A DNA stretch of 58,258 bases from a virus. The position numbers were made by a program, and so were the translations under genes. Position 1 is the stretch's first letter. Each line of letters opens with the position of its first letter. Shown in pieces: positions 1-6,613 of the stretch. The notes below the pieces were generated by a model. That model saw only the letters and a program-made list of their open reading frames with translations. It was not told the origin of the DNA and searched no databases. Where the stretch lies: positions 1-58,258 of IMG/VR virus record IMGVR_UViG_3300046413_000884; one strand, written 5' to 3'.

Positions 1-232
1 CAAAAAGTTCATCCTTTACAGTCAGTTTAGCGACAAAAACAACACAATGTTCAGGAAGAAGTTTAGAAAGATGTTTTATTGATTTACTTAGACGACCTTC
101 AGTATTACGTTGACAGAATACTTCAGGAAGAGCAGCATATTCATCATAAGACATCCAATATGAATCGATATCTCCACTTTCTTTAATCGGCAAGAAAGGC
201 ACAGTAGTACCATCACCTCTTTTAACAGTCAC
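1..232 (-). CDS. 5' part of an unknown phage protein, cut by the window edge
   Basis: An open frame runs from a GTG at 232 off the left edge. It encodes about 77 residues beginning VTVKRGDGTTVPFLPIKESG and containing CQRNTEGRLSKSIKHLSK. A second in-frame GTG at 262 would add ten residues; no ATG precedes either before a stop. The frame sits just after the terminator-promoter structure at 298-332, so it is probably the first gene of the next transcription unit. In T4 the gene after regA is DNA polymerase gp43, but this sequence does not look like a polymerase N-terminus. The function is unknown. I am fairly sure it is coding because the composition is protein-like and the frame is uninterrupted. 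Confidence 0.6.
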   Translation of the reverse strand, partial: MTVKRGDGTTVPFLPIKESGDIDSYWMSYDEYAALPEVFCQRNTEGRLSKSIKHLSKLLPEHCVVFVAKLTVKDELF

Positions 233-297
233 AAAATACCTCGGTGTAAATACGAAAACCACTAACCAAAAGGAGGTTGTGGGAGGTTAACTCAAAA

Positions 298-326
298 AAT
301 ATAGCATAAAAAAAGACCCCCGTCAA
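298..326 (-). promoter_or_regulatory. sigma70-like promoter embedded in the terminator after regA
   Basis: On the minus strand a -35 TTGACG (321-326) is followed by a 17-base spacer and a -10 TATATT (298-303) preceded by TGC, an extended -10. The -35 lies exactly in the loop of the terminator hairpin. It would drive the incomplete gene at the left edge. The match is strong but untested. Confidence 0.6.
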
Positions 327-332
327 GGGGTC
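308..332 (-). terminator. rho-independent terminator after regA
   Basis: On the minus strand a six-base-pair GACCCC/GGGGTC stem with a six-base loop is followed directly by seven T residues. It begins five bases after the regA stop codon and would end the gp45-44-62-regA transcript. Confidence 0.85.
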
Positions 333-337
333 CTGTA

Positions 338-769
338 TCATTCGGTTCCTTCTACTTTCTTCTTCTTGCCAATATTATACTTGGTCTCTAGCACCCATTC
401 GTGCTTTTCTTTATACGCCAGCACCTTGATTTGATTCAAGGGTGCAATGTCTGTAACTTTCTCTGGTTCAATAACACTGACCAGACCCCAGTCACAGAGC
501 AGTTGAATAATTCTGTTACGTCTCTGGACATCATTCACTGTCAGGTTAGCGTGCTTACCGTCCAAGGCAAACAGTTCCTTAAAGTGGACAATGTAATACC
601 GTCCCTGCTTATGCAGAATATGGCAGGACTGATAAATCTTTTTCTCTTTACGGGATGCAACCCCGATACGTGTCAGAGTTTCACGAACCTTAAGAAAGTC
701 ATCGGGTTCATTTAGGGTAACTTCGATCATCTGATCCGCCGACCAGCGAACTTCAGGTTCTTGAATCAT
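338..769 (-). CDS. regA: RegA translational repressor of early mRNAs
   Basis: The protein is 143 residues and closely resembles T4 RegA (122 residues). Shared segments include DDFLKVRETLTRIGVA, YQSCHILHKQGRYYIVHFKE, LLCDWGL and KHEWVLETKYNIG. RegA binds the initiation region of early phage messages and blocks ribosome loading. The start at 769 is chosen because GGAGG lies seven bases upstream and the ATG overlaps the gp62 stop as ATGA. A second ATG at 730 (residue 14) matches the T4 start (MIEVTL) but has a weaker ribosome site, so the protein carries a 13-residue N-terminal extension relative to T4. It is the last gene of its operon and is followed by a terminator. Confidence 0.95.
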   Translation of the reverse strand: MIQEPEVRWSADQMIEVTLNEPDDFLKVRETLTRIGVASRKEKKIYQSCHILHKQGRYYIVHFKELFALDGKHANLTVNDVQRRNRIIQLLCDWGLVSVIEPEKVTDIAPLNQIKVLAYKEKHEWVLETKYNIGKKKKVEGTE

Positions 770-5201: not shown

Positions 5202-6308
5202 TCAGATTGTATTGGTGTTGTCAATTGCGTAGATACGATCTTCATCCTCTGTTGAAATGGAGAAGTCCAAATCAACCTTGTCATAAAGTTCCATAAATGC
5301 CTGCTTGGTTTCATCATCAAAACGATTGACGCAAACTTGAATTGCCTTTGCCTTATCGTTGAAGATGCTGTAAGCACGAATGATGTGGACTAGACGACGG
5401 GTGCTGATGATTTCTTCAATACCACCATCGTAGAAGGTCTTACGGATGATGTCACCCCAATCGACCAGATGCTTACAGAAGTCTACATCATCGACATTCA
5501 GAGTTTGAGCAACGTTTTCAAGAATCTTCTGTTCGGTCTTAACGCTAGGATACTGCTGCTCAAATGTTACTGGGAATCGCTCAAGGAATGCTTCATTGAG
5601 CACGTTAGTTCCAATGAATCGTCCATCATCTGAACCTTTACCTTTAGTGTTTGCGGTTGCGATGACGTTGAAACCTGCACTGGGGCGGACAAACTGCCCA
5701 ATTTTTTTGAGAAAGACTCCATTTCCTTCAAGGATAGACTGGAGACAGAGAATTTTATTAGAGGCAAGGTCGATCTCGTCAAGGAGCAGGACAGCTCCTC
5801 GCTGGAGTGCTTCAACGACTGGGCCATTGTGCCAGACGGTTTCGCCATTAACAAGACGGAAACCGCCAATAAGATCATCTTCATCAGTTTCAATAGTAAT
5901 GTTTACACGGATAAGTTCTCTACCAAGTTGAGCACATGCTTGCTCAACCGAGAACGTTTTACCATTTCCAGAAAGACCAGTAATGAATGCTGGATAGAAT
6001 AGACGGGATTGAATAATTTTTTTAAGATCACCAAAGTTACCAAACTTGACGAAGGTATCATCTTTATCAGGAATTAGATTCTGTTCAATTGCAGGCATTG
6101 CAGGGGGTGCCTGATAAGTTTGCTCAAGTTGTTCAGGCACACTCAAATTCCATTTTCCACGACCAGTTTTATATTCATCAATTTTTTTAGAAACGGTTTG
6201 ATAATTAGCACCATTCATTGCACACCATGCTCGAATATCGCCACTGGTGACAGACTCGCCATACATGGATTGAAGTGAAGTGCGAATGTACTCGGAAGAG
6301 AGAGACAT
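5202..6308 (-). CDS. cobS: CobS-like AAA+ ATPase (MoxR/cobaltochelatase class)
   Basis: The protein is 368 residues. An N-terminal region (1-80) precedes an AAA+ core with Walker A GLSGNGKT at 111-118, an IGGF insert around 147-150, Walker B LLLDEID at 174-180 and sensor-type IATANTKGKG near 216. It resembles CobS, the AAA+ subunit of aerobic cobaltochelatase CobNST, which is widely carried by marine T4-like cyanophages. Its neighbour beyond the terminator is a CobT-like vWA protein, the normal CobS partner; CobN is not in the window. The pair may insert cobalt through a host CobN or remodel another target as MoxR-vWA pairs do. A sigma70-like promoter at 6339-6367 probably starts this operon. 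Confidence 0.85.
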   Translation of the reverse strand: MSLSSEYIRTSLQSMYGESVTSGDIRAWCAMNGANYQTVSKKIDEYKTGRGKWNLSVPEQLEQTYQAPPAMPAIEQNLIPDKDDTFVKFGNFGDLKKIIQSRLFYPAFITGLSGNGKTFSVEQACAQLGRELIRVNITIETDEDDLIGGFRLVNGETVWHNGPVVEALQRGAVLLLDEIDLASNKILCLQSILEGNGVFLKKIGQFVRPSAGFNVIATANTKGKGSDDGRFIGTNVLNEAFLERFPVTFEQQYPSVKTEQKILENVAQTLNVDDVDFCKHLVDWGDIIRKTFYDGGIEEIISTRRLVHIIRAYSIFNDKAKAIQVCVNRFDDETKQAFMELYDKVDLDFSISTEDEDRIYAIDNTNTI

Positions 6309-6338: not shown

Positions 6339-6367
6339 ATTATAGACCAAAAAGGGGGTCTTGTGAC
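6339..6367 (-). promoter_or_regulatory. sigma70-like promoter for the cobS-gp45-44-62-regA operon
   Basis: On the minus strand a -10 TATAAT (6339-6344, perfect) lies 17 bases after GTCACA (6362-6367, four of six matches to TTGACA). The -35 overlaps the loop of the terminator at 6349-6371. The -10 is about 30 bases from the cobS ATG. A host-type promoter suits early expression of the replication genes. Confidence 0.6.
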
Positions 6368-6371
6368 CCCC
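6349..6371 (-). terminator. rho-independent terminator between the SAP-like gene and cobS
   Basis: A seven-base-pair GGGGGTC/GACCCCC stem with loop ACAA is followed by five T residues on the minus strand. It lies 24 bases after the stop of the SAP-like gene. Confidence 0.85.
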
Positions 6372-6394
6372 ATTCAGACAGTTGTAAGATTGGT

Positions 6395-6613
6395 TCACCC
6401 AATGTCCTTGAGTTCCTTGATAAGTTTCGACTTGCTCTTACGGCGGTCAAGTTCGATACCTTTGGTGCGACCAAGTTCCTCAAGTTCAATTTTAGACATA
6501 TCACCCATTGTTTTAGCGACAGGGGTAGGTGCTGCTACAGGGGAAGGGGGGGTAGGAGCAGCAGGTGCTGGTGCTTCTTTTTTTCCCTTAACTAAATCTC
6601 CGAATTTAGACAT
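6395..6613 (-). CDS. small SAP/HeH-like protein with Pro-Ala linker
   Basis: The protein is 72 residues: a basic start (MSKFGDLVKGKK), a disordered Pro/Ala-rich stretch around 13-33, then a C-terminal helix-extended loop-helix (SKIELEELGRTKGIELDRRK) like SAP, HeH or Rho-N modules that often bind DNA or RNA. It lies between the CobT-like and CobS genes, so it may be an adaptor or substrate for that AAA+/vWA pair. A CATAAATA late-type box lies about 25 bases upstream and a terminator follows. The fold is inferred from sequence pattern only. Confidence 0.65.
   Translation of the reverse strand: MSKFGDLVKGKKEAPAPAAPTPPSPVAAPTPVAKTMGDMSKIELEELGRTKGIELDRRKSKSKLIKELKDIG

Follow-up and report, generated by a model that had tools for sequence, protein, structure and literature searches.

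A Predicted Interleaved Intrinsic Terminator and Sigma-70-Type Promoter behind regA in T4-Like Cyanophages

Introduction

In promoter-early stem-loops (PeSLs) a sigma-70-type promoter immediately adjoins a strong intrinsic terminator of the same strand; such units are present in several copies per genome and lie between tandem genes. They are the composite terminator/promoter cassettes of T4-like phages described by Arbiol 2010 and Comeau 2014, both cited in two further reports (PMC4503421, PMC5931544). A related arrangement was seen by RNA-seq in Kayvirus vB_SauM-515A1, where the early promoter p98 lies just behind the terminator t97; in the part of the report available these are described as adjacent, with no shared bases reported, and this phage is unrelated to the T4-like cyanophages (PMC7698491). 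Literature searches by phrase turned up no phage paper on terminators and promoters that overlap, which is weak evidence, the subscription literature being mostly outside such searches. The control of early and middle transcription in T4-like cyanophages has been described as unclear, and unmodified host polymerase is thought to serve the early genes of cyanomyoviruses (PMC2984593).

The element described here resembles the PeSLs in joining a terminator and a promoter of the same strand, in its multiple copies, in its position between tandem genes and in its occurrence at borders of gene exchange. It differs from them in geometry. The cassettes of RB49, as measured in this study, are arranged in tandem, with the terminator and its T tract followed by a separate −35, mostly 26–29 or 39–43 bases after the loop centre. 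The cyanophage element does not have this geometry, since its −35 is the loop itself and the T tract lies in the promoter spacer. Because the geometry differs although the predicted action is PeSL-like, the element was classified as an interleaved variant and not as a member of the RB49 type. It is a more tightly packed form of the terminator/promoter cassettes already known from T4-like phages.

Results and Discussion

The window, that is, the whole stretch of DNA analysed, is a virus record of 58,258 bases whose proteins place the virus among the marine T4-like cyanophages. The genes for RegA, gp62, Dam, gp44, gp45 and an AAA ATPase form a single row on the minus strand. No known RNA families and no tRNA were found in the window. 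The features at and around the regA stop codon are the following:

5202–6308, minus strand: gene of the AAA ATPase, first of the operon that ends with regA (phrog_249, E 9e-137; PF07728)
338–769, minus strand: regA, at the end of the replication operon (PF01818, E 7e-46; phrog_242, E 3e-65)
315–332, minus strand: terminator hairpin, GACCCC (332–327), TTGACG (326–321) and GGGGTC (320–315), from sequence and RNA folding
321–326, minus strand: −35 hexamer TTGACG in the hairpin loop, from sequence and conserved in relatives
308–314, minus strand: T7 tract, shared by the terminator and the promoter spacer, from sequence
298–303, minus strand: −10 hexamer TATATT, with TG at 306–305 (TGC at 306–304) and a spacer of 17, from sequence
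289–291, minus strand: predicted transcription start, about 7 bases after the −10
2–231, minus strand: PHROG 2615 gene, start GTG at 231, truncated by the window end (phrog_2615, E 2e-23)

Read on the minus strand, the regA stop codon TGA (340–338) is followed by TACAG, GACCCC, TTGACG, GGGGTC, seven T, one A, TGC and TATATT. The layout given in the earlier note, a −35 TTGACG in the loop of a GACCCC/GGGGTC stem with 17 bases to TGC-TATATT, was thus exact over 332–298. The hairpin 332–315 is stable by RNA folding (−15 kcal/mol, z −2.4), and its predicted stem of nine pairs takes in the first T and the last G of TTGACG, which leaves UGAC as the loop. The sequence traits of an intrinsic terminator, a G+C-rich stem, a short loop and a T tract immediately after the stem, are present at 332–308. 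TTGACG-17-TATATT shares 10 of 12 bases with the sigma-70 consensus, each hexamer being one base off, and has the TTGACA- and TATAAT-like hexamers within 16–18-base spacing of an early promoter. A predicted sigma-70-type promoter and a stem-loop terminator are therefore joined on one strand, as in PeSLs. In 100 dinucleotide shuffles of the 58-kb window no terminator carried an in-loop promoter scoring 9/12 or more; the real window has two, at 326 and 6367, both 10/12.

The start codon of phrog_2615 homologues is at the same position as GTG 231. The minus-strand leader 292–232 between the −10 and this start (ACCTCCCACAACCTCC...GGTTAGTGG) is conserved whatever gene lies upstream, which suggests a functional 5′ leader.

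The second composite is located at the other end of the gene row, before the ATPase gene:

6339–6371, minus strand: hairpin GGGGGTC-ACAA-GACCCCC, T5 and TATAAT (6344–6339), from sequence and relatives

Since the row bears this element (6371–6339) at its other end, the replication genes are bracketed by composites. The −35 of the second composite (GTCACA, 6367–6362) is poor. Many loci of relatives share the hairpin and the TATAAT but not the −35, and the site was dropped as a full example of an in-loop −35. A motif such as CAAACTGTCCA or ACTGGCACACC is found immediately upstream of the hairpin in many relatives of the phrog_249 ATPase (L078, L063, L065, L240, L264). Where a motif of this type is present (window 6339–6420 and relatives) the −10 is conserved and the −35 is not, and the motif may bind an activator at a middle-type promoter. 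Within the replication row, at the end of the ATPase gene (5224–5196, minus strand), there is a perfect TTGACA-17-TATAAT match with TG, a likely internal early promoter.

In the six T4-like cyanophage reference genomes 17 in-loop promoters were observed, against about 2.4 expected from the other offsets. The excess was found in five of the six, with two to five copies each (P-SSM2, 4; P-SSM4, 4; P-TIM68, 5; S-PM2, 2; Bellamy, 2), in line with the several copies per genome of PeSLs; Syn9 has none. Among the RegA-bearing loci of IMG/VR there were 21 in-loop promoters against 1.67 expected. Outside the cyanophages no in-loop excess was seen in T4 (0 against 1.2), RB49 (1 against 1.6) or KVP40 (1 against 1.1). 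A −35-like loop and a correctly placed −10 are associated, 25 of 38 as against 37 of 253, with a Fisher p of 1e-10 which is too small, because the homologous loci were treated as independent and are not fully so. Where a −35-like loop and a −10 go together, the spacers are mostly 16–17.

The promoter scan of IMG/VR, which takes no account of hairpins, gave 112 distinct viral matches. A stem of at least 6 bp encloses TTGACA in 41 of them, compared with 7.2 when the arms were permuted (maximum 14 in 500). The arms around the constant TTGACA take 25 different sequences, so pairing has been maintained while the sequence changed. Almost all contigs with a hairpin around the −35 (40 of 43) encode proteins closest to those of T4-like cyanophages. 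A chance overlap of terminator and promoter was rejected on the basis of the shuffles, the enrichment by offset, the association of loop −35 and placed −10 and the arm permutation.

The extended −10 was considered as a feature of the class and rejected: TG is present in 9 of the 41 hairpin-bearing matches and in 16 of the 71 others, and since it is not enriched it does not define the class. A second composite class was also seen, in which AACTGGCAAAAWCCAG directly precedes TTGACA and is followed by CCCC-rich bases, a T tract and TATAAT (L015, L047, L070, L141, L155, L157, L172, L179, L192, L198 and L334). Pairing of GGGT with ACCC may give these sequences a longer stem from which the −35 bulges.

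The comparison with related phages proposed in the earlier note showed that the layout recurs at regA in L004, L061, L066, L070 and P-SSM2. P-SSM2 has the same arrangement, with a 12/12 promoter whose TTGACA contains the regA stop codon. In two cases a manA RNA (RF01745), and not directly a gene, comes after the composite at regA (L302 1338–1535, from P-SSM2, and L066 5725–5824). The closest RegA relatives, L002 (RegA 100% identical) and L003, have a different element. There, and in L048 and others, a hairpin and T tract behind regA are likewise followed by an A+T-rich box, but the box (TTAAATA, TATAATTA) is further downstream and no −35 is present in the loop. These boxes resemble the cyanophage late motif NATAAATA (PMC2984593).

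A hairpin around the −35 was also found before the phrog_2615 homologues that follow regA in four loci where tblastn confirmed the upstream regA (L309–L312), with the arms GCACCC/GGGTGC, GGAGG/CCTCC, GACCCC/GGGGTC and CCCAGGA/TCCTGGG; L313 and L325, counted apart, have the same layout. When the homologue follows purM, TTGACA-17-TATACT with TGC is present without a hairpin (ACG-2014d, with the identical sequence in L318, L319 and L321; L324 has a close variant with −10 TATGCT, also without a hairpin), immediately before the same conserved phrog_2615 leader. Since it is kept after purM without the hairpin, the promoter belongs to the downstream gene; these loci show the terminator stem around it where the regA operon, too, has to be ended by the element. 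The promoter accompanies the downstream gene in most of its homologues; in L322 and L323, homologues with other upstream sequence, the −35 matches are weak. In L314–L317 the phrog_2615 start is preceded by TATAAT or TATACT and then by a terminator hairpin with a T tract running into the ATG.

The element is very probably an intrinsic terminator and a sigma-70-type promoter in interleaved form, by which the replication operon is ended and an early phrog_2615 transcript begun; actual termination, actual initiation and the early timing are what we infer from the DNA. RNA of the replication operon (ATPase, clamp gp45, clamp loader gp44/gp62 and RegA) would fold the GACCCC/GGGGTC hairpin and be released in the T7 tract, at about 308. 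In double-stranded DNA the loop TTGACG would act as the −35, with the T tract filling the spacer and TATATT as the −10. Because the DNA of the same stretch reads as a host-type promoter, a host-type polymerase would start a new transcript at about 290, without the hairpin, and read the phrog_2615 gene. Termination would presumably also shield the promoter from being run over. That the hairpin forms only in RNA of the upstream transcript, as had been proposed, follows from the geometry (predicted start at about 291–289, hairpin at 332–315).

Exchange of genes at such cassettes has been proposed for PeSLs. An unlikely reading of the present element is accordingly that it is kept chiefly as a module border where the genes behind regA are exchanged. 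The homology of the window ends at the regA stop (340) when compared with L002 and L003 and at the end of the −10 (300) when compared with L004, and the gene that follows regA varies among the relatives. With respect to the PeSL trait of similarity between copies, these borders are seen, yet the stem arms differ from copy to copy, which leaves little homology for recombination, the copies having little in common beyond the hexamers and the T tract. Borders are found also at sites with late-type boxes, and a role in exchange would be compatible with a regulatory one.

The suggestion that reading through and starting anew may be linked can be extended to a hand-over in which the polymerase, once released in the T tract, is used again at the promoter that it covers and read-through shuts the promoter; we regard this as rather improbable. 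The predicted 3′ end (about 308) and start (about 290) are only some 18 bases apart, so that a terminating polymerase, whose footprint spans both, would cover the promoter. Polymerase remains on the DNA after termination and can begin again at promoters close by (PMC6978380, PMC6978322), reinitiation being reported after 37% of terminations in vitro (PMC6978380), and a link between stop and restart is therefore physically plausible. Such restarts are, however, usually antisense (PMC6978322), and conservation of the promoter after purM without the hairpin means that coupling is not needed for the phrog_2615 gene. It is correspondingly doubtful that one 35-bp sequence, selected in cyanophages, ties the outputs of two operons by polymerase reuse and read-through occlusion.

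It is highly improbable that the element is a terminator only, with the promoter match an accident of the A+T-rich T-tract stretch and the downstream gene transcribed by read-through or from another promoter: T tracts do give T-rich spacers, A+T-rich DNA yields many promoter-like matches and the whole promoter scan gave 34 matches against 32 expected in 12 kb, but five of the six cyanophage genomes have more promoters placed in the loop than the other offsets would predict, spacers peak at 16–17 and the phrog_2615 gene retains the promoter after purM, where there is no terminator.

Experimental Section

For the offset scan, promoter matches of at least 9/12 were recorded at every offset from the loop centre of each terminator in the six reference cyanophages. 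IMG/VR was scanned with the pattern TTGACA-N5-8-T6-N3-6-TATAAT; the bases before TTGACA were ignored, which made the scan blind to hairpins. Stems were tested by arm permutation; the MAFFT alignment A1 put the stems out of register for the structure-pair count.

Conclusions

The 35-base element behind regA, with terminator and promoter interleaved, most likely both ends transcription of the replication operon and initiates that of the gene after it. This proposal of the earlier note is well supported by comparison of sequences, through the covariation of the stem around the constant −35, the spacers of 16–17 and the persistence of the promoter without the hairpin. Two overlapping codes are carried by one short sequence, one read in RNA as the paired stem and the other read in DNA as the −35 in the loop, and both are kept across a large group of viruses by stems that vary around a constant hexamer. 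In T4-like cyanophages the element can serve as a simple marker, both of operon borders and of early promoters, and it is a compact natural system for asking whether a polymerase at a terminator moves on to a promoter that overlaps it.
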